The notes under the pieces: model-generated
The model's database searches: none
Seen by the model: the letters and a program-made list of their open reading frames with translations, nothing else
Told to the model about the DNA's origin: nothing
Program-made: the position numbers and the translations under genes
From: Lentinula raphanica
Taxonomy: Eukaryota; Basidiomycota; Agaricomycetes; Agaricales; Omphalotaceae
Direction: 5' to 3'
Assembly: GCA_027919835.1 (NCBI GenBank)
Contig: JANVFP010000004.1
Coordinates: 1,302,001-1,366,000, forward strand
Length of the DNA: 64,000 nt
Shown here: positions 3,484 through 53,907 of the stretch, in pieces
Layout: the number at the start of each line of letters is the position of its first letter
Numbering within the stretch: the stretch's first letter is position 1

Positions 3484-6400
3484 ATGACTTCCACCGATGT
3501 CAATACCGAAAGATTCTTAGCTGATCGTTGTGCTCCTTTGTGCACTTTAGATGTATCGAAGACATTCGCGCAGCTGAGGTACGTTGTCGCTCAAGGCTCC
3601 CTTCCATATCAATATATATCGATATCGATTTCCATCCATATAGCCCCAAGGAGCAGAAATACGCCCACTACATTTCTGAAGCTTCCTGGGCCGGTGCGCG
3701 AATCATCCAGGCTCAATGGACTCCGGAGGCAAATGGTATGCTCAATGTTGCTGTGAAAAGTCTTCCATCGATGATCTGGGGCTCATACTACGATATCACC
3801 AGATCTGTTCGATCTTCTGATCTTGACTTTCAGCGACAATGGGAAGCTCGCCGATCTAGAATCGTTAAAATCCGCTTCTGGATTGAATCCCGATGACTGG
3901 GAGGATCTGCTCCAGTACACTGTTCAGTACGCCTACCTTTCGTTCTGCGTAACACATTCTCTTAATCTTAGGATCCTGGTGATATCAGAGTCTTCAGTAA
4001 CCTTGTGAACTATCGCTCATTCGGTTTCACCAAGTTCATTCCCCGGATTTCAGAGACTCAATTCGAAGCGGTCGTACGGAAGTCTGCCAATTCTGATCAG
4101 GCTCTTGTTCTTTGGTCCAAGGTTTCGTGACTACCTATTCTGAATCAATTTCGTATTTGCTGATGAATTCGATGCTTCGATATTGAAGTTGAAGCAGCAC
4201 ATATATAACATGCTACCTGAACCTTCTCTTTTTGTTGGCAAGCGTATTGAAGGCCACGTATCGAATTACTACCTGGGAGAAGTCATATCAGATCAGGAAG
4301 TAGGAGATGTGCAGAGCGCCGCAGACAAACTTGGAATCGATGTATTGAACACTCGGTAAGATTGGCGTATTTCATGATCCTACTAACCCTTCAACGAGGT
4401 TTCTCCATCGATGATTCTCTATACTTCAGTGTGAGGAAGAACTGCGATAGAGACTTCACGCTCCTCGTTGCATCTGCACAAACCAAACCTCCAACCACAC
4501 ACGATATCTCTACAGATTCCCACAAGTTTAAGCTCACTGTTGAGTATGGGGATCATGCAGAGGCACTGAAAAAGGTCGTTAGTGCACTTGAAGAGGTGTG
4601 TTTCGGAAATTGGAGTTTCTAATTTGAGGTCGTTAACTTTTCCTCGAGTAGGCCAAAAAATACACAGCAAATTCACATCAGACGAAGATGATTGAGAAAT
4701 ACATTGATTCGTATGTTTCAGCCTGCCCTTTGTTGTGCTTGGTAGCTCTGATCGTCCTCATGTGTACGCGATTAGGTTCAACACAGGATCAATACAAGAC
4801 CACAAAGATGCATCTGCAGAATGGGTCAAGGATATCGGTCCGATTGTTGAATCCTACATTGGAGTACGCATTCGATGATCTGAAGGTCTTTTGGGCGTCC
4901 TGCTAATCTGCCAACAATCTAGTTCGTAGAAACGTTCGTAGACCCGTATGGTGGGAGAGCTGAATGGGAAGGTGAATATCAATACCTGTTCGATGTCCTC
5001 CTTCAAGCAGGATATTAACAAACGCCTTTCCAGGATTTGCTGCAGTCGTGAATAAGGAACTCAGTGCCAAATACGGTGCTCTCGTAGATCAAGCACCAGA
5101 AATCATCAAGGATTTCCCATGGGGACCCGATTTCGAAGCGGAGACGTTTATAAAGCCTGATTTTACAGCACTTGAGGTGGTGTCATTTGCCACTGGCGGT
5201 GAGTCGATTATTTCTCTTTGTGATTGACTCAAAAGATGTCGATCTCTTGCTCGGATTGATAGGCAGTATGCCTGGGGGTATCAATGTGAGTTGTTCCTTC
5301 GAATATCCGGTAACGCCATGCTGAGCAAGATTGAAGATACCGGTAAGCTTCCTGAATAAGAGGACAGAACGAAGATGGCGCGTACTCACTTGCGTGATAG
5401 AACTACTATGATGTACGCGAGACCGCAGGGTCTAAGAGTGTATCATTGGTGGTATGTCTATCCTTTTTGTTATATATGGCTTTCGCATAACCGTGCCGCA
5501 TCCAGAACATACTCTCTGCGAAAGCACCAAGTTCGTGTTCTATTTCATCATGGTGGTACAAATCATCGAGCTAGCGGCCCTATCCAGACGAAGAATCAAC
5601 TTTCGTACATCCCGATGACATTGAGGTCTGCAAGGAATATCAAAGTCGAGCATTTGAGCTCCAGGTGGCTAATCATGAGCTTCTGGGACATGGATCGGGA
5701 AAACTCTTGAAGGAGAATGCGGACGGGTCGAAGAACTTTGACCCAAGTGTGAGTATTCTCATCTTGAACTTTCTTCGTGCTCTGAACTCTCGATCTGTGC
5801 AGACTATCAATCCGCTCACTGGAAAGCCGGTGTATGTGCTACTCAACGTATCCCCATTCCCCTTTCTCAATGGCATCTTGGTAGATCATCGTGGTATAAA
5901 CCGGGCCAAACACCAGATACCATTTTCAAAGAAATTTCTTCGTCGATGGAAGAATGCAGGGCTGAAACTGCTGTGATATACCGTGAGTCAATGTTGTGAA
6001 AGTTCTGGCAAAGATGAGAATGTCATACCCTTTCAGTGGTCGGGAACAGAGATATTCTGAAAATCTTCGGAGTGAGTGCGATTATCAATCGTAAACCCAA
6101 CTTCTCTAAAGGGACTCATTTCAGTACGTTCATCAACAAGAAATCGAGGACATGCAGTATGTCACCTTTTTGACGATGGTGCGCATGGGCCTGCAAGCAT
6201 TGGGGTTCTACGATCCTGCAACCCAAAAGCATGGACAAGCCCACATGCAAGCTCGGTGAGATTCAGCTCGTAGTACTTATTGCATGAAGAACTGACTGGT
6301 TCAACAATTCGTGCGATATGGAGGCTGGGCATCGCTCAGTTCCTTGTTCAAAATGGTATCGCTCGACTTGAAGAGGTTCGTAACTCATCCAACGAATTGG

Positions 6401-7105: not shown

Positions 7106-9913
7106 ATGGCCTTTTTCGCAAGACCTGCTTCTGCATCAGCCGCTGTAAGAATAGTAAATCCCAACACCCAGAATGAACTAGTACAACCTACGCGGAAAGG
7201 TAGTGCTTATCCTTTCGATTACAGACAGTCAATGATCGACTCAAACGCTCTTTCAGATTCTGGCCAACGTCGATGTAGAAATGTAATGATATATGGGTGT
7301 GTCGCATCCATGCTGCGAACGAAGATGTTGATTGATTCTCTTTCGCAGTTTTTGTAAATATGAGGACAAGGGTTGTGTATACTATCATCCACCGGTGCGC
7401 TACAGAACTCAAAAGATCGCCTTGATTCTAACTGCTGTAATCTTAGGCTGAAGAAGTCTTCTCTGCTCCGTATGTAGAGTCCCAAAATCGTTCCATCTCC
7501 TCGTTACAAACCTCATTCTAGATTGCGATCGGCTTCTCCGGCTGCAGCAGCTACTACCGGAACATCACCAATATCCGCACATGCTGTCAACGCACCTGTA
7601 TTTGTCCCTAAGGCATCCTCACTGTCTCTCGCTAGTTCTTCTCCAGCGCCCGTCAACCGTCAATCTCTGGCCTCGTTAGTGATCCCTGCTTCAGTGTTCT
7701 TTCCTTGTCTCATGCTCATTCTGCAACGTCAAGCCCTACTCCCTCGTCTCCTGCTCCGCCTGATTATCATCAATCTACTGAGCATTATTCGTATTCCGAC
7801 TCTAAACAAGTGGCTGATGTGAGCTCGATACCAATGTTCCTCCATCAATCTCTTATTATCTTCAACCCAGCTGGAACCGCAATACTACGACGATCCTCAA
7901 GCTCAATACACCGGTTATTCCTCTGCATACGCCCAGAACATGGAGGTGCCTTTTTACGCTGGTCCATCCCAAATGTATATGAGTGAACCAGTAAGATATT
8001 GTATTCTCCATAGCTTACCATATCTTATTGGTTCCCGAGCTCGACCATCATCTCTATACGCCCGCTATCCCTTCAACATTCATTTCTTCTTCAACTGGCA
8101 ATCATTTCGTAAACCCGTCTCTCGAACTTCGGCAAATATTGCAAGAACGCAGTCACACAAGTCGCAGTAGTGCGCTCCTAGGTGCGTCCACTTCCTGGCT
8201 GGATCACAAAGCGAACTGATCTTGACACACAACAATAACTAGGGCTCAACCTCCCGGAAGAGCTTCAAGGGTACCACACGTTCGTTCCGATCGACACTGT
8301 CAGCCCTCCTGACCGAAAGAAATTCTTCAACTTGAATTCCGTTGTCTATCGGGCAGTAAATTCGACCGATGGTATTTCGTACGTTTTAAGAAGGATTGAA
8401 AGTACGTTATGAGGTTTGTAATGAAAAATCTACGCGAAATTTACACGAGCATGTAGATTTCCGCTTGATGCAACAAGCAGCTTTCAATCCTATCGAAGCT
8501 TGGTCTCAGATCCGCCATCCGAACATTGTACCCGTTCACGAGGCATTCACAACACGAGCATTCAACGACAACTGTGCGTTCACTCAATCTGTTCATATAC
8601 TGTGATTTGACCTGCATATTTTAGCTTTAATCGTTGTCTATTCCTACTATGCTAACTCGCAAACGCTATTCGATGTCCACCTGAAACATGTCTCTCCTTC
8701 TGGCTACCCTCAGCATCAAAATGGCGGCGGGCGAATTACGCTAGGACACTCTCACTCTGTACCTTCGCTCACTCATTACGGGCAGCACCTTCCTTCGTCG
8801 TTCACGACCTCTCAATCTATGCGTCAATTGACGCCAAATGGGATACCCGAACGTATCCTCTGGTCGTATATAGTACAAATCGCCTCAGCTATTAAACGAG
8901 TACATGAAGCTGGCCTGGCCGTTCGAACGATCGATGCTACGAAGATCATTCTGACGGGAAAGAACCGAGTGCGAATTGGATCGTGTGCGGTTTGGGATGT
9001 CCTTACATACGATCAGCATCTCGATGTTGTTTCGTTACAACACGATGACCTCCAGCAGTTCGGGAGATTGATTTTCGCATTATGCTGCAATAATCCACAG
9101 GCTACGACAAATGGGAACTTTCAGAAGAGTTTGGAGATCATCAGTAAGACGTATAGTCATGATGTGAAGAGCATAGCCCTTTTTCTGATTAGCAAGAACC
9201 ATCCACACAAGGTGAGTTCGTCGCCATTTGCCACAGATATATCTACTGAGTGCTATCTGGTAGAACATTGGTACTGTTTTCGAAATGATCAATGGTAAAC
9301 TGCTTACGGAACTGGACGACGCGCTCGAGTAAGCATTTTCTTACTCGAAACATAGCGGCTTATATTCAATGTCAATCGCAGGGGCATGGATCTTCTGGAG
9401 AATGAGATGCTCAGTGAGCTTGAGAATGCTCGATTGGTTCGTCTCCTCTGCAAGTTTGGCTTCATTAACGAAAGACCTGAGTATGTATTGTCTCGCAAAA
9501 GGCTTGATCCTTCTCAATGTATGTCCTAGGTTTGCGCGAGATTCTCGTTGGTCGGAAACTGGCGATCGGTACATCATCAAGCTCTTCCGTGACTACGTTT
9601 TCCACCAGATTGACGAACATGGAAATCCGGTTACGAATATGTCGCATGTCCTCACTTGTCTAAACAAAGTGCGTTATTGTTTTCAAACTCCCTTATTGAA
9701 TGATTTGATCTCGATTATTTGTAGCTTGATGCTGGTACGGAAGAGAAGATCATGCTGATTGCGCGCGATGACCAAAGCTGTCTGGTTGTGAGCTACAAGG
9801 ACATCAAAACTTGCGTCGAAGCTGCCTTCAGGTTAGTTGTCCCCTCCAGGAGAAGCAAACATCAAGCTCAATCCTGTCCCAGTGACCTCTCTCGTGCTTC
9901 TTCAACAAGATGA
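7106..9913 (+). CDS. PAN3: PAN2-PAN3 deadenylase regulatory subunit PAN3
   Basis: Adaptor that brings the PAN2 exonuclease to poly(A)-binding protein for trimming of mRNA tails in the cytoplasm. N-terminus: [14 protein letters not shown], then a CCCH zinc finger ([16 protein letters not shown]) interrupted by introns near 7200-7370. A Ser/Pro/Ala-rich linker follows (7540-8200). Next is the pseudokinase with [42 protein letters not shown] and [11 protein letters not shown]. It keeps the fold but lacks DFG-type catalytic residues, as expected for PAN3. The C-terminal knob domain holds [23 protein letters not shown] and [15 protein letters not shown]. The last intron splits [16 protein letters not shown] before TGA 9911-9913. 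The start is taken at 7106 because an intron-free zinc-finger start follows directly. It converges on PRP2 with about 190 bp between stops. Confidence 0.93.
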
Positions 9914-37711: not shown

Positions 37712-38788
37712 CCTAAATGTATGTAACAGAATCGATATAATGGGTTATTCAAAACGAACACTTTCCAAGCCTACTTGGACTTGCCTGTAGTGACGAACGG
37801 TAGCGTAACTGTAGAGTAGATATAAGTACGAGGCTGTCAACGAACAAGACCCATAGTGACGTACAGATTGTATGAGAGCGTATATGATAACTAGAAATGT
37901 CTTCAGATAACCAGACAACGGAACGTTGTAAATCAGACTGGAGAATATCATCGTCAGCGGCGGTCAAGAGAGACAAGGCAGAAGCAGGGCAGAACTGACA
38001 GTGGGGGTAACCGACCAGCAGTAACTGAGAAAATTCTGGTTCACCCCTGCCTCTGTATATACTCAATCTTTCGACTCACATAATTTTTACTAATACACAG
38101 AGGCTGTCCCAACCTGTGTACACCATCAACGGCCTCCTCTACTAGACCGTTTTGAAACCATTCATTTGTGGTGTGGGTTATCATTAATGGAGTTAATATA
38201 CCTTCGTATATAGCTCAGCGTGAGTTTTCGCAATACTCGGCAGTATTCGTGGAGGTATAGCATAGTAGGTCGCATTATCAGTTCGTCAGCGCCAAGGGAG
38301 TAGATCAGAAGTGAAGTACGGCGAAAGGCATGGATGAAGGCAGCTGGGGAGGCTTTTGAGAGGAGAGACGAACGAGGATTAGGTGGACGAGTTCTTGAGT
38401 TGTGATGTGTATCATTGAGGGACTAGCCAAGTTTGGATCTCTTACACCCACAAGGTTCCAGAGGCCTCCGAGTCGCTTTGTTGCCTGTGGGCCGTCGCAG
38501 ACGACTGTTGGAGTAGAAGTAGCAATAGCAAAGTTCAGGGTCCAGACTATACCGGAATATACTCGCTTGAACAATGAACTTGTCAGCCTATAATAACGAT
38601 GGGAGGCTATGAAAAGTACTAGCTTTTTCATAGCCTCCCATCGTTATTATGTTATCTTCGCCAGAAAGTAGGATGCAGCCATTGATTGTTTGGCTGGCCG
38701 TCTTGTGGCTCGACGAAGTTGGAGAAGAAAAATTTGTTTGTCGAATGTCCTGGAGGCTGAGGAAGAGACTGGAGGAAGATAGGAGAAT
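37712..38788. other. Gene-free stretch with a long hairpin
   Basis: About 1.1 kb. A 105-codon minus-strand frame at 37,749-38,066 has no recognisable feature. 'tctgtatatactcaatc' near 38,052 could be the TATA region of an unseen short transcript. The notable item is the hairpin at 38,590-38,650. Confidence 0.5.
38590..38650. repeat. Perfect 26-bp inverted repeat with 9-nt loop
   Basis: The arm at 38,590-38,615 (ataataacgatggga...) is the exact reverse complement of 38,625-38,650. The loop is 38,616-38,624. No homopolymer or simple repeat explains it. It could be a fold-back scar, a tiny MITE or a small-RNA hairpin. Confidence 0.85.
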
Positions 38789-38996
38789 ATCAGACTCCTT
38801 CCCATCCGCTCTTGCGGGTTAAAAAATGAGGATATTACTATATATGGCATATCTTTATCTTATCCTTATCTATATCTTATCTTGTCATATGATAATTTGC
38901 ATTTTTTAACCACGCAAGAGCGACTGGCATAATATGTCTAAGCGCCGGATGGTCTTGTTTGGTTCCAGTATTCAAATTTATAGCGCCCATGTCTTC
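38789..38996 (+). repeat. Third copy of the CTCTTGC inverted-repeat unit, cut by the Ngaro element
   Basis: It matches one arm of the 24-kb element: agactccttcccatcc, then a TIR unit 38,809-38,920 (CTCTTGCGGGTTAAAAAATG and its reverse complement), then cgactggcataatatgtcta, gtttggttccag and tagcgcccat. Homology stops about where the Ngaro element begins (38,997), so the Ngaro insertion probably truncated it. Confidence 0.75.
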
Positions 38997-39501
38997 GTTG
39001 TAAAGGTGAACTAGGTGAGCGTTTTCAGAGGCCTCCGCTGACGAGCGCCTTCACTTCATTCACGTGTCCTCCTCAGACTTAGTCTGGGCCTCATACTAGC
39101 TGTGTGCCTCACATCTGCATCCGTTGGTTCAACAAGAAGGATGTGAGACAAGGATCCACAGCTGGTTTCTTCCTCACTTCCACCATCACTGGCATAGTGA
39201 GCCTCATCTGCGAATGTTACACGTTCTCTGACTGAACTAACATTCGTTTCTCGCAGGTATTAACGACCCTTCTTTTGTCACTGCGCTGCTTCTACACATC
39301 GTCGTTAATACCCAAGGTAAGCGAAGATTGCTCTCGAATCTTCGCGCGTTCACATCCTTGAGCTGGTTTCTTCCTCACTTCCACCATCACTGGCATAGTA
39401 TTAACGACCCTTCTTTTGTCACTGCGCTGCTTCTACACATCGTCGTTAATACCCAAGTTGGCTCTCTTCAGTCGTTTCCACACGACTCCTCTTTCGCGTC
39501 A
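38997..39501 (+). repeat. A1 repeat: intron-containing leader fused to its own spliced copy
   Basis: 38,997-39,360 matches A2 colinearly, including intron 1 (39,197-39,256, gtgagcc...tcgcag) and intron 2 from 39,317 (gtaagcg...). It breaks three bases before intron 2's AG. 39,361-39,501 then restarts in exon 1 (agctggtttc) and continues with intron 1 removed (junction 39,397/39,398) and intron 2 removed (junction 39,457/39,458), both exactly at the GT-AG borders seen in A2. Confidence 0.92.
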
Positions 39502-39529
39502 ATTTCTTGCTTCGCCATCTTGAACTCAA

Positions 39530-40861
39530 ATGACCGGTGGAGAGAATGTTGGACAATTATCGACACGCTGTCAAAAAGTGGTCGACGATGCTAATGCGGG
39601 GCGAATCACTCTGCAGGACGCTCAAGAGAAACTCCGAGCTGAAGGGATATCTGGTTCTGTCTTACAATCATTCCTCGTTCAACTTCAGAAGCCTCCAGGA
39701 GAAGCGGGTGAAAGATCCTTGTCAGATGTTGATCGAGGAAAAACTCCAGAAGGTCTTGATGAAAATCAGAGAGAAGAGTTTAGGAAGCGCAGAGCAGAGA
39801 TCCTCGAAGGAGGTGGAACTGGATCTAGTGGGTCTGGTGGTACCGGAGGTCAAGGAGGAAGCGAGGGTGGAGAAAACAGAGCCGATGGCACTAATTCCTC
39901 GCCCGGAATGCCTGATTCTAGTTCCAGTGCAGAAGCTCGAGCACTCGAATCCAATGCTCTTGCTCAACAACTCAAAGTTTTTCAACGCCTCGTTGGCTTC
40001 GACAACGGAGGCATTTCTCCATCCACGCTGGATAGTCTCCCTCACTTGCGAGAGAAGGTTGGGTCAACTGGAGATCAGCATATTGACGAAACCCTCCGAA
40101 CCAGAAAAGTCTATCTCAAAGAGCAGAATCTTGATGCTCTTGTTGATCTGTTCCAGAGTCAATCCCTCCCGGAACCGCTTCCTCGGACCATCTGGAAGCT
40201 TATCCTCAAAGACGAATACGTCTCTTTTGAGAAGCTTTTCGCCGGTATCGATCCGAGCTACGATCATCAGGATGAAGGAAAAGATTTCGGAGCAGGCTAC
40301 ACCTTGGTCAAGACAGACCATCTTTCTGCAAAGAAGCCGGTCGTTAGTGAATCAGACTGGAATCGGGCCTTTGACGCTTGGAGGAATGGAGTCATTCAAG
40401 CTTATCCTCACCGCAGAGATGAACTTGTCAATTATGGCCAGGGAATCTCGCATCTCTTTCGAAATTTTGCTCACGATCCTTCCATCCCTATTCGCGCTGA
40501 TCATGAAGTTCGAGAGCGATATCACAAGAGTCCTTTCCGTCTCGACGATGGGAATCGTACCCAGGCCGCAGTTATGGCACTCGTTCATCGAACATCGGTG
40601 GGTGTTCGGTCGAAGCGCCCGTCGGATGCGGGCCCTTCGAGTCGTTCTTCTAAACGCTCTAGTGGTGCTATCTGCCTCAATTGGAATGGTGCGCGGTGCG
40701 ATGATCCCTGTGTCAATGGTCGAAGACACGGAACCTGCTCAGTTTGTTCAGGGAAACATCGAGCATTCGATTCAGCCGATTGCAAATTTGAGTTCCTCGC
40801 CAGGAGATCTCGAAACGCTGCAGACAAGCAACCGGGTGCAGGAAGCTCTTCAAGGACCTAG
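39530..40861 (+). CDS. Ngaro ORF1, Gag-like protein
   Basis: 443 codons from the first ATG after the spliced leader. N-terminal helical region: CQKVVDDANAGRITLQDAQE and LRAEGISGSVLQSFL. A Gly/Ser-rich stretch (GGTGSSGSGGTGGQGGSEGG) follows, then a conserved middle (LPRTIWKLILKDEYVSFEKL). A Cys/His-rich C-terminus has ICLNWNGARCDDPCVNGRRH followed by TCSVCSGKHRAFDSADCK, the zinc-binding block expected in DIRS/Ngaro ORF1 proteins. It presumably packages the RNA. It overlaps the RT frame at its 3' end in the +1 frame. Intact. Confidence 0.82.
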   Translation: MTGGENVGQLSTRCQKVVDDANAGRITLQDAQEKLRAEGISGSVLQSFLVQLQKPPGEAGERSLSDVDRGKTPEGLDENQREEFRKRRAEILEGGGTGSSGSGGTGGQGGSEGGENRADGTNSSPGMPDSSSSAEARALESNALAQQLKVFQRLVGFDNGGISPSTLDSLPHLREKVGSTGDQHIDETLRTRKVYLKEQNLDALVDLFQSQSLPEPLPRTIWKLILKDEYVSFEKLFAGIDPSYDHQDEGKDFGAGYTLVKTDHLSAKKPVVSESDWNRAFDAWRNGVIQAYPHRRDELVNYGQGISHLFRNFAHDPSIPIRADHEVRERYHKSPFRLDDGNRTQAAVMALVHRTSVGVRSKRPSDAGPSSRSSKRSSGAICLNWNGARCDDPCVNGRRHGTCSVCSGKHRAFDSADCKFEFLARRSRNAADKQPGAGSSSRT

Positions 40862-42710
40862 GACTCTGAGGGGTGAGAAACGTAAGGCTGCCGAGTCGAG
40901 TGCCGCTAGCGGTCCCCGCTTCAAGCGAGGCTTTGTCTGGGAAGACAGTGACGAAGACATTGTCTCCCCCTCTGTTCTATCTTCTGAGACCGCTGCTCCT
41001 CTTCCCGGTCCACCTTCTCATGTCACAAACGATCCTGTGATTGTCAGGGCCTTATCTGAACACAATGATCTTTTGAAAGTCCAAACTCCCTACGACATAG
41101 ACAAGCTCTCTTCTTTCTTGTCTTTCCATCCTAACCGACCTTTCGTTGAATCTGTCCTCGAAGGTTTAAAATCCGGTTTCTGGCCTTGTCACACTGGGGA
41201 CTGGGAATTGAACGATTCTATCTTTGAGGACAACTATAACATGGAAGATCTTGATCTCGATGCCGTCAGGACTTACCGAAACAAGGAAGTGGGAGCTGGT
41301 CGGTGGTCAAATTCGTTTTCTTCATTCCATCATCCTATGAAACTCTCGCCTATGTTTGTTGTCTGGCAGGGGGAATCTCACAAGGCGAGAGTGATCACCG
41401 ATCAGACCGCTTCAGGTCTGAACGCTGGAGTTCACAGGGAAGACGCGCATGTACGTTACGACGATATGCGGTCCTTTGGAGCGGCACTCCGTCAAGCAAA
41501 GAAGAGGAATCCCGGAAAGAATCTTGTTCTTTTCAAAGATGATGTGAAAGGAGCTTTCCCAACGCTTCCAGCTCATCCAATCTGGCAGCTCAAGCAGGTC
41601 GTGAAAGTCGACGATTCATTTCATATCGTACGACAATTGATTTTCGGAGGACGACCCATTCCCCGGATCTGGTGTGCCTTTGCTTCATTGATTCTTTGGA
41701 TTCTCGTTCGCAAATTTGACATTGTCGGACTCCATGTCTATATGGACGACTTTTTCGGATGGGATTTTGCAGAGAATCTTGTCATGTTTCATGGTCGCCT
41801 ACGACCAAGACGCCAAGTCCTCCTCCTGATATTCTGGGATTACATCCATTGCCCTTACGAAGATGAGAAACAAGACGCTGGTCCTTGTTTGAAGATCATC
41901 GGATTCTTCGTCAACATCTGCGCGGGTACTATCTCAATCACGGATGACTCCATCAAAGAGTTGATCGTCCAAATTCAAACTTTCTTGAACCACTCCTCTC
42001 GTAAACCTCCTCTTCGTCAATGGATGCGGCTCTGCGGACATATCAATTGGGCTCTCAATGTCCTTCCTTGGGCTCGTCCGGCTCTGACAGAACTGTATTC
42101 AAAAATCGATAACAAAACTGGCATGGGATCAGGAGTTCCGCTCAACGTTGCTGTTAGAGAGAGTCTGACGTGGCTAGTGGAGACTCTCCCTCGATCTATT
42201 GGGGTCCGTCTTCTCGATGACGGGCTGTGGCCTGACTCTGATGCTGATATGGTCTTCTGGTCGGATGCAAGCAAACTCGGTCTTAGTTTTGTTTTTGCAG
42301 GAAACGGGTTCTACTATGAGATTCACGCAGATCCTGAAGCTCCTCCAGTCGACATCTTTTTCAAGGAGTTGGTCGCTATCCTGTCAGCCACTGCGTTTGC
42401 CGCTGAACTGAAACATCCTCCTAGACGGATTCTTCTTTTCACCGACAGTCTTGATTCCGTGGATGCTTTCAATTCTCTAGCAGTCCACAATGTTTCTCAC
42501 AATGCACCTCTCTTTGCTGTGTCGGCAGTTGTGCTTCGTACAGGTTTTGATGTCAGGGTCAGACACATTCCAGGCCGTGATAACATCCGAGCTGATCTTC
42601 TGTCGCGTTTACTGCTTGATGACTTTTGTCTTCAATTCCCTTCTTACCACGTCCGCCCCTTTGTTCCTCCTCGAGACCTTCTGCCGGCGCGATGGAGACT
42701 GTGCTTTTGA
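40686..42710 (+). CDS. Ngaro reverse transcriptase / RNase H
   Basis: The open frame extends back to 39,537, but the part before about 40,690 is only a shadow of ORF1. The ATG at 40,686 gives 674 codons and overlaps the ORF1 end by 176 bp in the +1 frame. RT motifs: LVLFKDDVKGAFPTLPAHP, RQLIFGGRPIPRIWC and the catalytic box HVYMDDFFGWD, then KIIGFFVNI. RNase H follows: VFWSDASKLGLSFVF, FKELVAILSATAFAAEL, LLFTDSLDSVDAFNSL and HIPGRDNIRADLLSR. Acidic residues D-E-D-D are kept. It probably synthesises cDNA that is integrated by the neighbouring recombinase. No stop or frameshift is seen in the RT or RNase H core. It may be translated by re-initiation or +1 shifting after ORF1. Confidence 0.87.
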   Translation: MVRGAMIPVSMVEDTEPAQFVQGNIEHSIQPIANLSSSPGDLETLQTSNRVQEALQGPRTLRGEKRKAAESSAASGPRFKRGFVWEDSDEDIVSPSVLSSETAAPLPGPPSHVTNDPVIVRALSEHNDLLKVQTPYDIDKLSSFLSFHPNRPFVESVLEGLKSGFWPCHTGDWELNDSIFEDNYNMEDLDLDAVRTYRNKEVGAGRWSNSFSSFHHPMKLSPMFVVWQGESHKARVITDQTASGLNAGVHREDAHVRYDDMRSFGAALRQAKKRNPGKNLVLFKDDVKGAFPTLPAHPIWQLKQVVKVDDSFHIVRQLIFGGRPIPRIWCAFASLILWILVRKFDIVGLHVYMDDFFGWDFAENLVMFHGRLRPRRQVLLLIFWDYIHCPYEDEKQDAGPCLKIIGFFVNICAGTISITDDSIKELIVQIQTFLNHSSRKPPLRQWMRLCGHINWALNVLPWARPALTELYSKIDNKTGMGSGVPLNVAVRESLTWLVETLPRSIGVRLLDDGLWPDSDADMVFWSDASKLGLSFVFAGNGFYYEIHADPEAPPVDIFFKELVAILSATAFAAELKHPPRRILLFTDSLDSVDAFNSLAVHNVSHNAPLFAVSAVVLRTGFDVRVRHIPGRDNIRADLLSRLLLDDFCLQFPSYHVRPFVPPRDLLPARWRLCF

Positions 42711-43690
42711 GCTTGCTGGGTGGGTCACAAGTGACTCGCCCTGTGTCATCGCTTTCTCACTTGGACGAGAGGGTGTCTTTCTTACAAGCTCATTCAATCG
42801 AAAAGTCTACTGTCAGCAACTATAGAACTGGTGCTCGAGATTACATTTCATTCTGCCTCTCCCATCGTCTGCCTTTGGATCCGACTCCGCTAACACTTTC
42901 TCGCTATATTGCCTACACTTCGCAATTCATTGCCTCGGCCCCGAAATATTTGACTGGTGCCCAACACTTCCTCAAACACCTTTATCCAGATTTTGTCGAG
43001 AATCGCGGCTCACCTCTTGTTCAGGCAACCATCAACGGATCTCGTAAGTTCAGAGCGGATTCAGTCAAACGCAAACTTCCAATTCGTCTTGAACATCTGC
43101 GGGTCTTCGAATATCATTTCTTCGACAACCCATCTTACGACAATCTCCTCTTTGTCACTATCCTTTCATGCATGTTCTACGGATGCCACCGCTCAGGCGA
43201 GCTCATTCACAAAGGTTCCACAGCCACAATCAATTACCGAAAGATTATCAAGCGCAGTTCTCTCCATTTCGATGGCGACCATGCTGGTTACTGCCTACCC
43301 TATCACAAAGCTGACCGCTTTTACCGCGGTTCTGATATCCTCTTATCGCACCACGAGATTGCAGATCCAGTCTTCTTTCTCTCCCTTTATTCGTCTCTTC
43401 GAGACTCCCGACATGGCGCCAGAGCTGAGTTATTTCTTCGAGAAGACGGTTCTCTTCCATCTCGCCGGTGGTTCGACAATCATTTCTTCTCAGTCTTGAG
43501 TTGAGACTATGGAGGACACTCAGTAAGAGCCGGTTCCGCAACTTACTTCGCTAGTCTCGGAGTATCCGAAACAATCATTCAAGCACTCGGTCGCTGGTCA
43601 TCTGAAGCTTGGAGAATCTATGTTCGTGACCACCCTACCATACGGGCTGAGTTGCAACTTGCATCCCTTCGCACATCTCTTCGGAGTTGA
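42692..43690 (+). pseudogene. Ngaro tyrosine recombinase, interrupted by an in-frame TGA
   Basis: From ATG 42,692 (METVLLSLLGGSQV) the frame encodes a SAM-like core-binding part (KSTVSNYRTGARDYISFCLS, TPLTLSRYIAYTSQFIA) and the first catalytic box YGCHRSGELI. TGA at 43,502-43,504 stops it. The same frame then continues with the remaining catalytic residues: GGHSVRAGSATYFASLGVSE (HxxR), ALGRWSSEAW and the nucleophile Tyr in RIYVRDHP, ending at TGA 43,688-43,690. A single transition would explain the stop. Everything else is intact, so the loss is recent. The enzyme would normally integrate a circular cDNA without target duplication. It overlaps the RT end by 19 bp. Confidence 0.85.
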
Positions 43691-43785
43691 CCTCTGAGTC
43701 CTCCTCCCTCTGCTCTCCACCTCATATCATCCTTTTTCACCTCCGGCCACCCCCACACACATCATCAATAGCTCAATCATTAGCC

Positions 43786-43866
43786 CTTTTCATCCAATAT
43801 ACACGATTTGGAGGGGAGTGAGTTCCGCTTCCCCGAGACGGCTAATGTGCGATATAAGTGGAGGTC
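43786..43866 (+). repeat. B1 repeat
   Basis: 81 bp beginning cttttcatccaatatacacg and ending gtggaggtc, directly followed by A2. One mismatch to B2 (gagtgag versus gagcgag). Confidence 0.92.
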
Positions 43867-44277
43867 GTTGTAAAGGTGAACTAGGTGAGCGTTTTCAGAG
43901 GCCTCCGCTGACGAGCGCCTTCACTTCATTCACGTGTCCTCCTCAGACTTAGTCTGGGCCTCATACTAGCTGTGTGCCTCACATCTGCATCCGTTGGTTC
44001 AACAAGAAGGATGTGAGACAAGGATCCACAGCTGGTTTCTTCCTCACTTCCACCATCACTGGCATAGTGAGCCTCATCTGCGAATGTTACACGTTCTCTG
44101 ACTGAACTAACATTCGTTTCTCGCAGGTATTAACGACCCTTCTTTTGTCACTGCGCTGCTTCTACACATCGTCGTTAATACCCAAGGTAAGCGAAGATTG
44201 CTCTCGAATCTTCGCGCGTTCACATCCTTGCAGTTGGCTCTCTTCAGTCGTTTCCACACGACTCCTCTTTCGCGTCA
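43867..44277 (+). repeat. A2 repeat (unspliced leader copy)
   Basis: Full unspliced copy of the leader with intron 1 at 44,067-44,126 (60 nt, ctaac branch-like word upstream of tcgcag) and intron 2 at 44,187-44,233 (47 nt). It shares sequence with A1 until gcgtca, then diverges. Confidence 0.9.
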
Positions 44278-44495
44278 CCCACCCTCCACTCCCACTGCAA
44301 TGCCTCGCATCCATGTTTCATTTATCTCTTTTAATCCTTTCATTTGTTTCGTTGAGGTCATTTTTGATGATTTTATTCTCTATGTAGACGATGTAGTCTG
44401 GTTTCAACACCACATGTATTACTATTGTGATTTCAGCTCTCTTCTGATAACTCCTCCTGTATGACATCTATGCTGCCTCATTTCGTTCCTGTACT

Positions 44496-44576
44496 CTTTT
44501 CATCCAATATACACGATTTGGAGGGGAGCGAGTTCCGCTTCCCCGAGACGGCTAATGTGCGATATAAGTGGAGGTC
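44496..44576 (+). repeat. B2 repeat (right terminus of the Ngaro element)
   Basis: 81 bp, same as B1 with one substitution. The sequence after 44,576 (aatgctcatt) has no relation to A repeats, so this is the outer end. Confidence 0.92.
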
Positions 44577-44981
44577 AATGCTCATTATCATAATTTTTGG
44601 CTTGTTTCGTACGTCTGTGGATACCTGAGTCCCGATCTGGACTCAGGTCATGTACAGCCACCGGGTCCGGTTATACTATCTGTCCGAGTGCCGATTACAT
44701 CTTCGGCCATTTGACTGCTTCGACTCGGCAGATGTACCCATTCAAAATGCGCGATGTTTTCTTTTCTCTCTCTCTTGAGTCGCGCGGCACAGATTAGCTA
44801 TCTTGAGGCTTGTTGAGCTCTCATTCCTTTGTACATGCTACTATGCCTTACTACTACCTTGATATATGCTATTTGATTCCTCAATCATGGTCTGTACCTA
44901 GGATAAGCAAAAGTAAGCACACTTGTTTCAGTACGCCGTCCATTGCAATGAAGTCATCCAACCTCTGTGCTCAATGAGAAG
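44577..44981. other. Spacer right of the Ngaro element
   Basis: About 400 bp. ccgggtccggttatac near 44,660 and short frames only. No gene is seen. Confidence 0.45.
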
Positions 44982-45428
44982 ATGAGCCACCCTTCATCTT
45001 CTAAACTCAATCCAAACTGGGGTGGAAAGCGTGCTGGTGCAGGCCGCCGGAAGAACTATCCCTCATCGTCATCTCAAGGACCCAGTAATTCCAATCTGCA
45101 GGAACCTTCAACGAGTCGTACTGCTGTCAAGAGTGGATTCTGGCGGCCATGGATGACAACTGAACAACCTACCGTTGGATTTTTCGCGCCGCCGCTGCCC
45201 GAGACGGTTGTTCCACCTGGCGCCTCCGACTACTCCTACAACAAAGACGGAAAGCTCACATATAGATGTCAGAGAATCTGTACTCACCTCGTTTCTCCAG
45301 ATTTCTATCAAATTGACACACCCACTTCAATGGATGCTCCCGAAACATTGTTCACTACGTCGGGGGTAGCTTCTAACATCTCTCAGGCCACCACCGATAT
45401 GATTGTCGACGACAAAACCCCCCGATGA
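44982..45428 (+). CDS. Short ORF with GGKRAGAGR motif, probable mobile-gene fragment
   Basis: 148 codons from ATG 44,982: MSHPSSSKLNPNWGGKRAGA, GRRKNYPSSSSQG, then TSRTAVKSGFWRPWM, VGFFAPPLPETVVPPG and RCQRICTHLVSPDFYQ, stop TGA 45,426-45,428. The WGGKRAGAGRRKN start is the kind of basic N-terminal motif seen at the head of multicopy basidiomycete transposon-related proteins, but I cannot assign a family. Directly downstream the DNA becomes AT-rich and non-coding, so the ORF looks like the truncated N-terminus of something longer. Confidence 0.4.
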   Translation: MSHPSSSKLNPNWGGKRAGAGRRKNYPSSSSQGPSNSNLQEPSTSRTAVKSGFWRPWMTTEQPTVGFFAPPLPETVVPPGASDYSYNKDGKLTYRCQRICTHLVSPDFYQIDTPTSMDAPETLFTTSGVASNISQATTDMIVDDKTPR

Positions 45429-46301
45429 CGATCCACAGGATACTGTGAAGCTTTTGTAAAAAGACCTGATGAGTTATCCAGGAGCTTTTGAAAATAGTTG
45501 TGACGACACAGAGGGGGCTCCGGAAATGGCTCCGGGGGGTGGGCATGCCTGTCACCACCTGTCACATCTGACCTATATTTACTGTTTTGGGTAATTAATA
45601 ATTATCCAGATATTAAATAAGCGGTACATTTGTAAAAAATCCTGATAAACTATAAAAATTCAGAAAAACCCAAAAAACCTAATTAGGTCAAATTGGGGTA
45701 TGTAAACAAAATAGCCTTATATGGTAAAAAATGCTGTAGGATCTATCTAGGTGCTAAAAATAGCCAAAAAAAATCACTAAAAATGCTAAAAATATGTAGG
45801 AATGGTATATAGCCTATTGCAGATCGAGGCATCCAAAAATTACCAAAAAGGAAATTTTTGATGATGATGTCATCTTGTAGCAAAAAATCTGAAAAAAATC
45901 CTAAAAATAGTCAAAAAATTCAGGGGTGCCTTGTTGGCCCTGGAAATGCAAAATAAAAAAAAACACACGACAAGTGTAAAAATTTTTGTCACTCCAAATG
46001 ATACCAAATCCACTATATAGTCAGTATATATAATGTATATGCTATATTTAGCATCCTAGTACCCTCATTGGGCTAAAAATAGAACTTGATCTCATCTGGT
46101 AGCAAAAAATCTGAAAAAATCATTAAAAATACTCAAAAAATTCAGGGGTGCCTCATTGGCCCTGAAAATGCAAAATAAAAAAATTTACACGACACAATTG
46201 AAAAACAACATCATTCCAAATCTTATCAAATTTACTATATAGTTAGTATATATCATGTATATACTATTTATAGCATCCCTAGTACCCTCAATCACTTATA
46301 T
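45429..46301. repeat. AT-rich degenerate tandem repeat (insertion site of the gypsy element)
   Basis: Very AT-rich. An approximately 210-bp unit occurs at least twice (about 45,870-46,080 and 46,093-46,295), with shared words aaaaaatctgaaaaa, aaaaaattcaggggtgcc, ttggccctg, aaatgcaaaataaaaaa, ctatatag and agcatc..agtaccctca. The same agtaccct word returns after the gypsy element (about 53,975), which shows that the element landed inside this repeat. Confidence 0.75.
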
Positions 46302-46437
46302 CACTCTGTCACAGATTTCCTTATACTCCTATCCTTGATCATTTATCTTATCTTTTTCCTATTTTATCATTTGATTATCAGTAGTAGTTTATTAGCTAAG
46401 CATCTCTGTGCCATCATCTTCTCATATGTACAATCAC

Positions 46438-46629
46438 ACAGTAATATCAGGTTACTTGGCTACAGTAACATCAGGGTACCTGACTACAGTAATATCAGGT
46501 TACCTGGCTACAGTAATATCAGGTCACTTAGTTACACTGATTTTAAGTTACCTAGCTACATTAATATCAGGTCACTTAGATACACTGATATTAAGTTACC
46601 TAGCTACATGGATATTAGATTACCCACTG
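46438..46629 (+). repeat. Eight-unit 24-bp tandem repeat in U3
   Basis: Eight consecutive 24-nt units starting at 46,438; the same array occurs in the 3' LTR. Units alternate between a cagtaatatcagg type and a cactgatattaag type in the second half. The position just upstream of the TATA box suggests an enhancer array. Confidence 0.85.
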
Positions 46630-51943: not shown

Positions 51944-53466
51944 GGGAGGTCAAGGAAGCCTTGCTAACTGATGAAGTTACAAAGGATTATAAATCACTTC
52001 TGTCATCAGGACCACGAGAATTCAAGAAATCACTTGAAGAGTGGAACTACGAAAATGGGTTACTACTCTATCGTAGCAAAATATATATACCAAAGAGCAC
52101 GGACGATCATTTACGAAGACGAATAGTCCAGATGCATCATGATTTACCATCAGCAGGACATCCTGGGAGATGGAAAACCTATGAACTCGTATCCCGAAAC
52201 TATTGGTGGCCAGGGATGTCAGTCTTTGTTAAAACCTATGTTTCAGGCTGTGACACTTGTCAGCGGATGAAAAATCGCTCACAACAGCCCTTTGGACCCT
52301 TACAACCAAATAAAGTACCAAATGGACCTTGGGAGATCATTTCCATAGATCTTATCACCCAGTTACCACCATCTGGAGAATACAATGCTATCTGTGTTGT
52401 GGTAGACCGTCTTACCAAGCGAGCACACTTCTTTGCAATTACAAACAACTTTACAGCTAAAGACTTAGCAAGGTTACTCTATGACAGAATCTATCCTCTG
52501 CATGGATTACCATTGCAAATCATATCTGATAGAGGAACACAGTTTGCAGCTGAAGTGTTTCAAGAATGGTGTAGACTACTCGGAATAGAATCCTCTATGT
52601 CAACTGCCTATCATCCACAAACAGATGGACAAACAGAACGTGTCAACCAGATTTTGGAACAATATCTTCGGTGCTATGTTGATTATAACCTCAATAACTG
52701 GGCCAACCTATTAGGCACAGCAGAGTTTGCATACAGCAATCAAGCACATGAAGGCACTAAGGAGAGTCCATTCTTTTTGGAATATGGTCGACATCCTCGT
52801 GCAGGTCCTATTCTTATTAAAAACCATGGGTCCATTGACTTCAATGACATAATGCAACAAAGATTTGAAGCACAAGAGCAGGCAAAATCTGCACTCAAGT
52901 TGGCAGCTGAACGGATGAAATGGTATTATGATAAAGGAGTTCAAAATATACCATTCAAAGTTGGAGACAAAGTTCTGTTGAATCTTAAAGACTACCAAAC
53001 TACAGAACGTGCTTTACAACCAAGATATGAAGGACCATTCAAAATTGTCAGAAAATTATCTGATGTAACTTTTGAATTGAAATTACCTCCAAAATATCGC
53101 AGTATACATCCAGTCTTTCATGCTAGCAAACTTGCCACCTATACGGAATCTACTATTCCAGGACAAAAACCACCTACTCCTGAGACTATTATAGTCAATG
53201 GAAAGGAAGAATGGATAGTGGAGAAAATCTTACAACACCGAATTCGGGGAAAGAAGTTACAATATCTGGTTAGATGGAAAGGTTTCACTAGAGAGGATGA
53301 CACCTGGGAACCTGTTGCAAATCTAAAAAATGCACCAGAAAAAATCAAAGAATATAAAAAAGAAAATAATAATGCAGCTCAAAGTATGGAACTGGATCTC
53401 TTCTCAACGGAGCTCGAATCTGAAGAGGGGGTAATGTCACAGATTTCCTTATACTCCTATCCTTGA
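51886..53466 (+). CDS. Integrase with chromodomain, gypsy element 1
   Basis: The frame is open from about 51,886; the first ATG 51,961 (TTG-type in context) is not the natural start. The HHCC zinc domain is seen as HHDLPSAGHPGRWKTYELVS and CDTCQRMKNRSQQPFG. DDE core: ISIDLITQLPPSGEYNAICV, LPLQIISDRGTQFAAEVFQE, then TAYHPQTDGQTERVNQILEQ with the catalytic Glu. A GPF/Y-like LQPRYEGPFKIVRKLSDVTF module precedes a C-terminal chromodomain: EEWIVEKILQHRI, LQYLVRWKGFTREDDTWEPV. Chromodomains of this group bind methylated H3 and target heterochromatin (established). The stop lies inside the 3' LTR. Without restoration of frame it cannot be made as part of Gag-Pol. Confidence 0.85.
   Translation, partial: AIQAIEAAHESPINDEQILREVKEALLTDEVTKDYKSLLSSGPREFKKSLEEWNYENGLLLYRSKIYIPKSTDDHLRRRIVQMHHDLPSAGHPGRWKTYELVSRNYWWPGMSVFVKTYVSGCDTCQRMKNRSQQPFGPLQPNKVPNGPWEIISIDLITQLPPSGEYNAICVVVDRLTKRAHFFAITNNFTAKDLARLLYDRIYPLHGLPLQIISDRGTQFAAEVFQEWCRLLGIESSMSTAYHPQTDGQTERVNQILEQYLRCYVDYNLNNWANLLGTAEFAYSNQAHEGTKESPFFLEYGRHPRAGPILIKNHGSIDFNDIMQQRFEAQEQAKSALKLAAERMKWYYDKGVQNIPFKVGDKVLLNLKDYQTTERALQPRYEGPFKIVRKLSDVTFELKLPPKYRSIHPVFHASKLATYTESTIPGQKPPTPETIIVNGKEEWIVEKILQHRIRGKKLQYLVRWKGFTREDDTWEPVANLKNAPEKIKEYKKENNNAAQSMELDLFSTELESEEGVMSQISLYSYP
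53421..53434 (+). promoter_or_regulatory. Polypurine tract of gypsy element 1
   Basis: tgaagagggggtaa directly before the 3' LTR TGTCACA. A similar gggagggtaa precedes the LTR of element 2. Confidence 0.75.
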
Positions 53467-53907
53467 TCATTTATCTTATCTTTTTCCTATTTTATCATTT
53501 GATTATCAGTAGTAGTTTATTAGCTAAGCATCTCTGTGCCATCATCTTCTCATATGTACAATCACACAGTAATATCAGGTTACTTGGCTACAGTAACATC
53601 AGGGTACCTGACTACAGTAATATCAGGTTACCTGGCTACAGTAATATCAGGTCACTTAGTTACACTGATTTTAAGTTACCTAGCTACATTAATATCAGGT
53701 CACTTAGATACACTGATATTAAGTTACCTAGCTACATGGATATTAGATTACCCACTGTTCCAGAGTAGTATAAATACCCCTCTGTATTCCTGGGTATCCC
53801 CCCAGATTCAAGAACATCTTTTATCCTCTTGTGATCAACTTGTGCTCATACTCTGTCACTATCCCCAACCTTTGCAACTACAACTAGGTGAGTTCTAAGT
53901 TGTGATA
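53435..53907 (+). repeat. 3' LTR of gypsy element 1
   Basis: 473 bp, identical to the 5' LTR except for one extra C (tatcccccc). The integrase reading frame runs 32 bp into it and stops at 53,464-53,466. Confidence 0.93.

Follow-up and report, generated by a model that had tools for sequence, protein, structure and literature searches.

LINE-1 SpIREs have been described as integrated copies of spliced LINE-1 RNA (PMC5860796). Ngaro elements are presented in the published accounts with the repeat order A1-[ORFs]-B1A2B2 (PMC8547959, PMC9210276). For DIRS-1, the account consulted describes an RNA that is incomplete at the left repeat; cDNA synthesis is proposed to restore the missing part with an internal copy as template, in a scheme that its own reviewers call not fully proven (PMC5633606). 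As described there, DIRS-1 bears inverted repeats and a complementary region, and the scheme covers correct copying, not errors (PMC5633606). The restoration of ends in tyrosine-recombinase retrotransposons is known mainly as a model. In the open-licence literature, surveyed mostly at listing level, we met no Ngaro or DIRS element described with a spliced or a doubled left end. An unspliced and a spliced leader meeting at a defined base, as in the element described here, indicate that reverse transcription met a spliced RNA and point to the start of that RNA; the chimera also suggests the site of strand transfer to the internal repeat A2, and it raises a possible division in these elements between unspliced genome RNA and spliced mRNA. 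Only one copy shows it, and LINE-1 has already provided spliced insertions; here one is met in another retrotransposon order. We regard the junction as informative rather than shocking for the specialist, the chimera being real, exact and well explained as RNA-templated.

The window, meaning the whole analysed stretch of 64,000 nucleotides (C4:1302001-1366000), belongs to a 49-Mb genome of 75 contigs. By its sequence, the element within it is a Ngaro-type tyrosine-recombinase retrotransposon, lying on the plus strand with split direct repeats in the order A1-[ORFs]-B1A2B2 (A starting at 38995 and 43865, B at 43786 and 44496). The left repeat A1 (38995-39501) matches A2 (43865-44277) exactly, piece by piece, and A2 retains both leader introns. 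Repeats B1 (43786-43866) and B2 (44496-44576), the latter forming the right end of the element, differ in 1 of 81 nt (99% identity). A gag-like open reading frame of 443 amino acids (39530-40861) is assigned to gag by position only, its single Pfam match falling below the cut-off (E 0.078). The reverse transcriptase part of an open frame spans 40890-42710; it contains a YMDD in frame, which we take to be the reverse transcriptase motif, and its closest proteins are two from Lentinula (69% and 76% identity), with a record named "Reverse transcriptase domain-contai..." among the closest. These matches make an agaric basidiomycete the probable host. The Pfam search of the window frames gave no reverse transcriptase match at E<=1, the comparison with solved structures likewise none at E<=1, and the reverse transcriptase of a sister family reached RVT_thumb below the cut-off (E 0.037). 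The tyrosine recombinase frame (42626-43504) is interrupted by a stop at 43502-43504 and has no Pfam match of its own. The open recombinase frame of the sister family matches the phage integrase family phrog_1 (E 5.2e-8), presumably a tyrosine-type integrase; against Pfam it gives Phage_int_SAM_4 (E 0.045) and Phage_integrase (E 0.24), both below the cut-off, and against solved structures no match at E<=1. A methyltransferase, the feature separating Ngaro from DIRS, is absent from the Pfam matches of a search that also missed the reverse transcriptase.

With described Ngaro elements the window element has in common the repeat order, a reverse transcriptase followed by a tyrosine recombinase, and occurrence in fungi (PMC8547959, PMC9210276, PMC3783388). 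Unlike them, its A1 is chimeric and not an equal copy of A2, and its A repeat holds two leader introns; the texts searched for the word "intron", among them PMC8547959, PMC9210276 and PMC3783388, make no mention of leader introns in Ngaro in the portions covered. We read the unequal A1 as a defect of this copy and not as the mark of a different family. Like SpIREs, as far as these are described (PMC5860796), it has its own 5' leader integrated in the genome in spliced form. In the window, too, spliceosomal introns of the element's own RNA have been lost exactly. The two differ in that the window element carries an unspliced and a spliced leader in tandem, which we attribute to a refill of the promoter side from the second repeat, and in that its origin is a split-repeat element with a recombinase and not LINE-1. 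LINE-1 has no split repeats and is target-primed. The window element works like a SpIRE but is not one.

Exact matching resolves A1 into four segments of A2. The first, 38995-39360, equals A2 43865-44230 over 366 nt with 0 mismatches. It comprises the promoter side, upstream of the putative RNA start (38995-39159, identical to A2 43865-44029), and a first, unspliced leader with exon 1 (39160-39196), intron 1 (39197-39256, 60 nt, GTGAGC...CTAAC...CAG), exon 2 (39257-39316), whose ends form a predicted hairpin conserved in the alignment, and intron 2 (39317-39360) up to, and without, its last three bases, CAG. At 39360/39361 the acceptor ...CCTTG meets the donor AGCTGG..., and the sequence restarts inside exon 1 at the base equivalent to 39160. 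The second leader then runs through exon 1 (39361-39397), exon 2 (39398-39457) and exon 3 (39458-39501), the final stretch common to A1 and A2, with both introns gone. Its segments are A1 39361-39399, equal to A2 44030-44068 (exon 1 and two ambiguous bases), 39398-39457, equal to 44127-44186 (exon 2), and 39456-39501, equal to 44232-44277 (exon 3 and two ambiguous bases). No shared segment of A1 and A2 contains a difference, nor do the two leaders of A1 differ from one another. The earlier note had described just this arrangement, with an unspliced leader ending 3 nt short of the end of intron 2, a return into exon 1, and intron-free junctions at 39397/39398 and 39457/39458 that coincide with the GT-AG borders of A2; the alignment of A1 to A2 gives piecewise exact identity and upholds the description to the base.

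The introns themselves, written as GT-AG, occupy A2 44067-44126 (60 nt) and 44187-44233 (47 nt). Eight leader rows of this genome were aligned, two of which (A1 and the second unit of A2 in the C8 copy) are identical and so not independent; intron 1 has its GTGAG and CAG borders and a CTAAC in 6/6 of the rows covering it. Intron 2 has GT in 8/8 rows and CAG in 7/8, the exception being a decayed copy that lost its acceptor. A branch-like CTAAC and a short length are what is expected of fungal introns. Judged by conserved GT-AG borders, the CTAAC in intron 1 and their short length, the leader introns are real. The borders are of spliceosomal type, so self-splicing or another origin of the two gaps need not be invoked. 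Known structured RNAs or ribozymes were likewise set aside for the A repeat, as Rfam gave 10 matches at E<=1 in 38500-45000, none of them at gathering score and none in A1 or A2. Among the possible deletions of 30-119 nt in the leader, 68 of 15,705 (0.43%) are GT-AG compatible, and this rarity, together with the borders kept in relatives, speaks for the argument made at first sight that two exact losses are hard to explain without the copying of a spliced RNA. We consider it close to certain, from these alignments, that the second leader derives from reverse-transcribed spliced RNA. Intron 1 also contains an ATG at 39214, upstream of gag, and in the spliced leader the gag ATG is the first one met (both located by script). 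The upstream ATG recurs in C8 (by script) and C39 (by eye) and is missing in C25, so that it is present in 3 of the 4 full leaders aligned; splicing would help gag translation in these three by removing it.

The spliced junctions are rare in the genome. Pattern searches of the element's own 49-Mb genome allowed up to 3 mismatches, and the reversed-pattern controls gave 0 in all three cases. The exon 1/exon 2 and exon 2/exon 3 spliced patterns each occur at 1 place genome-wide, the A1 of the window, and the unspliced exon 2/intron 2 pattern at 8 places. The exon 1/exon 2 pattern is the window's own, and because relatives differ at the end of exon 1 it would miss a spliced relative; the claim of uniqueness rests for this reason on the exon 2/exon 3 pattern, a better test that could miss a copy as diverged as C25, and on the aligned copies. 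These comprise the window A2, A1 and A2 of C8, C39, A1 of C25, a decayed copy (C3), a fragment (C47) and a truncated copy (C3b), with the first unit of C8 A2 stopping before intron 2, C47 and C3b covering part of exon 2 and intron 2, and C25 A2 carrying no leader. None of them shares the junction or, in the parts it covers, lacks an intron at these borders. The chimera as a fixed feature of the family, descended from one rearrangement in the manner that the earlier note had allowed for, is thereby rejected within the genome as searched, since the other left ends and leaders of the family do not carry it.

Two relatives, C8 and C25, have the same A1-[ORFs]-B1A2B2 order, each with an ordinary, unspliced A1. 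In C8 (L013) it is A2 (7616-8564) that is altered: exon 1, intron 1 and exon 2 are doubled, unspliced, as 7865-8019 and 8020-8174 (97.4% alike). The second unit is identical to A1 (8020-8270 equals 4326-4576), and between the first unit and A1 there are 4 differences, of which intron 1 holds three and exon 2 one. The repeat restarts there at ATCCAC (L013 8019/8020), 6 nt upstream of the restart in the window, and the junction, unspliced, shows no microhomology by eye. In C25 (L015/L016), A2 (in L015 2273-2740, minus strand) is only 161 bp long, identical to A1 over that length; it breaks off at GTGAG, 12 nt before the putative RNA start, and holds the promoter side only and no leader. Since this A2 has no introns to give back, the unspliced A1 of C25 suggests that an intron-containing RNA can serve as template, a sequence-based reading conditional on the short A2 having been present in the parent already. 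All three full-length members found thus have an A-repeat anomaly breaking within 12 nt of one conserved block, GTGAGACAAGGATCCACAG, a clustering noticed post hoc in three cases only. For the doubling in C8 a duplication at the DNA level is possible, and its mechanism may differ from that in the window; the same applies to the short A2 of C25.

Other relatives are fragmentary. C39 consists of a lone A-B unit and a 5'-truncated copy (L012 4566-5104), which is truncated inside intron 2, carries about 48 bp from the 3' flank of the lone element next to it, and sits between two 68-bp copies of local sequence (97% alike), an arrangement such as the insertion of a read-through transcript with a long target duplication would leave. 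The exon 2 and intron 2 fragment of C47 (L014 4949-5060) directly adjoins the end of a 1.2-kb stretch that has a second copy nearby, 93% identical.

A sister family, whose reverse transcriptase is 56% identical (at least 84 matches, pieces included, among the best 81 of 272 candidates), offers a view of the usual left end. In the one repeat pair read (L061, L062), A1 equals A2 in 1046 of 1047 positions, with one gap, to the end of the fetched stretch, and on the strength of that pair an equal A1 would be the usual outcome. Among the best 40 of 226 candidate A copies, 40 of the 41 matches listed reach the end of the 299-nt query, the other being a 29-nt piece. Three further left ends (L063-L065) were read and none was accepted as spliced: no GT follows the point where L063 leaves L061, L065 contains an inserted stretch of about 1,144 nt, and the 67 nt missing from L064, with GC at their start and AG at their end, do not make a convincing intron. 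The gap in L064 (at 503/504; C13:38620-40620) lies in the leader. The 67-nt stretch, within a 241-nt query, is carried by 40/40 scored among the best 40 of 237 candidates, the L064 copy not being among these; the gap is possibly a rare intron loss and more likely a deletion.

The junction of the window A1 is further marked by microhomology. When CAGCTGG is compared with all 407 seven-base windows of A2, 7/7 positions match at the true site, 44029, and the sole other window with at least 6/7 is CAGTTGG at 44231, which coincides exactly with the chimera junction, at the border of intron 2 and exon 3. Mononucleotide shuffles reach a 6/7 match at this fixed place in 2 of 2,000 cases. The same border is the point at which a spliced cDNA paired through exon 3 with an unspliced A2 loses colinearity. 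The restart base A39160 (equivalent to A44030) is, judging from the sequence, probably the 5' end of the RNA. This base is an A after a C, and C44231 is absent from the chimeric product; an RNA with that A as its first base would be consistent with the C missing from the CAG at the junction. The arrangement fits a cDNA end that corresponded to A39160, with or without a cap-derived G, and paired at the intron 2/exon 3 border.

These features are brought together if the A1 of the window arose by a mis-registered strand transfer while the left end was rebuilt from a spliced transcript with A2 as template, which we consider the probable explanation. It carries the DIRS-1 scheme over to split direct repeats by analogy, both having an RNA that would lack part of the left end and an internal template that would restore it (PMC5633606, as far as the scheme is set out there). 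Transcription would start inside A1 at about A39160, giving an RNA without the first 165 nt of A1, and the missing left end would be restored from the internal copy, here taken to be A2. The template RNA of the window copy would have had both leader introns already spliced out. At the 5' end of the RNA, the cDNA should continue on A2 at the identical exon 1, and with a spliced RNA such a correct transfer would yield an A1 made of the promoter and a spliced leader. Instead, the cDNA end (the complement of AGCTGG) would have paired at CAGTTGG, the intron 2/exon 3 border of the unspliced A2, and its extension would have run back through intron 2, exon 2, intron 1 and exon 1 into the promoter side of A2 before a tyrosine recombinase inserted the product.

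The earlier note had proposed a template switch from an unspliced A2 onto a spliced A1 cDNA. Its spliced-RNA origin for the second leader stands, and the source in A2 and the timing are plausible. The direction is better reversed for minus-strand synthesis, with the cDNA reaching the 5' end of the spliced RNA and then being extended on the unspliced A2. A2 is a plausible but not the sole conceivable source of the unspliced half: over that part the two repeats do not differ, and an earlier A1 may have supplied it. It counts against a mis-registered transfer that the copying would have to pass over one base of the template (C44231), unless a G derived from the cap is assumed, and that the spliced chimera is seen in one element only.

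The main rival is a later repair, in which an ordinary A1 was inserted and a spliced cDNA of the family recombined with it afterwards, homologously on the exon 3/gag side and by end joining at the end of intron 2. It would give the same final sequence with the junction at the same border of colinearity, end joining also uses short matches, and the difference between B1 and B2 means that some time since insertion may have passed. We think it unlikely, as it needs a second event at one insertion and as A1 and A2 show no differences in their shared segments, as if one cycle had made both, an appearance that a recent repair would share. Such a repair also requires the reverse transcription of a spliced RNA, but not in the element's own replication. 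The chimera could instead predate the insertion, the doubled leader having been inherited from a parent through one or more cycles. A doubled A1 could in principle be transcribed and copied, and the gag-like and reverse transcriptase frames are open; with no second copy found in the genome and two leaders without sequence differences, this origin is improbable. An origin without RNA, by tandem duplication of the leader in the DNA and a later, separate and exact deletion of each intron, is highly improbable: C8 shows that unspliced tandem duplication of the leader occurs (L013 7865-8019 and 8020-8174), but two GT-AG-compatible deletions would arise by chance about 2 times in 100,000 if independent, a figure that does not yet count the borders conserved in relatives. 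An assembly or library artefact, for which we found no supporting point, is equally remote, since genomic reads should not contain spliced RNA and the site is single and lies on a 1.88-Mb contig.

Beyond the mis-registered transfer proposed for the window, the A-repeat anomalies of the family may be frozen intermediates of left-end regrowth, an idea that we put forward tentatively and would sooner doubt than adopt. Here cDNA would run off the capped 5' end of the RNA and move to A2, unspliced RNA would be the normal genome and spliced RNA the mRNA, A2 would act as the intron-keeping master, and errors would join the start of the RNA, on one side, to the base of conserved leader hairpins. Were this true, split repeats would exist to restore the promoter, and the products of failure would map both the start site and the transfer site. 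A stem CAAGG/CCTTG is predicted whose 3' base coincides with the junction in the window, and in C8 the junction lies at most 1 nt from the 3' base of the exon 2 stem. A rule placing junctions at hairpin bases was not relied on and is kept as a lead, having been noticed post hoc with a stem probability that depends on where folding starts (0.40-0.51 in the whole A2, and 0.91-0.93 only if folded from the start site).

The A repeat (window 43866-44277 and relatives) has many predicted hairpins common to four copies, among whose conserved predicted stems are GTATTAACGAC/GTCGTTAATAC in exon 2 and GCGAAGATT/AATCTTCGC in intron 2. A compensatory change in at least 1 of the 4 sequences is seen at 14 of the 101 predicted pairs of these hairpins. 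Just left of the element, window 38583-38654 gives several microRNA-precursor matches on both strands, far below gathering scores, which suggests a palindromic hairpin. To the right of the element, two direct repeats of 192 bp, 82% alike and 222 bp apart from start to start, lie at 45865-46278, and identical direct repeats of at least 300 bp at 46307-46606 and 53435-53734, 7.1 kb apart, are possibly the ends of another element.
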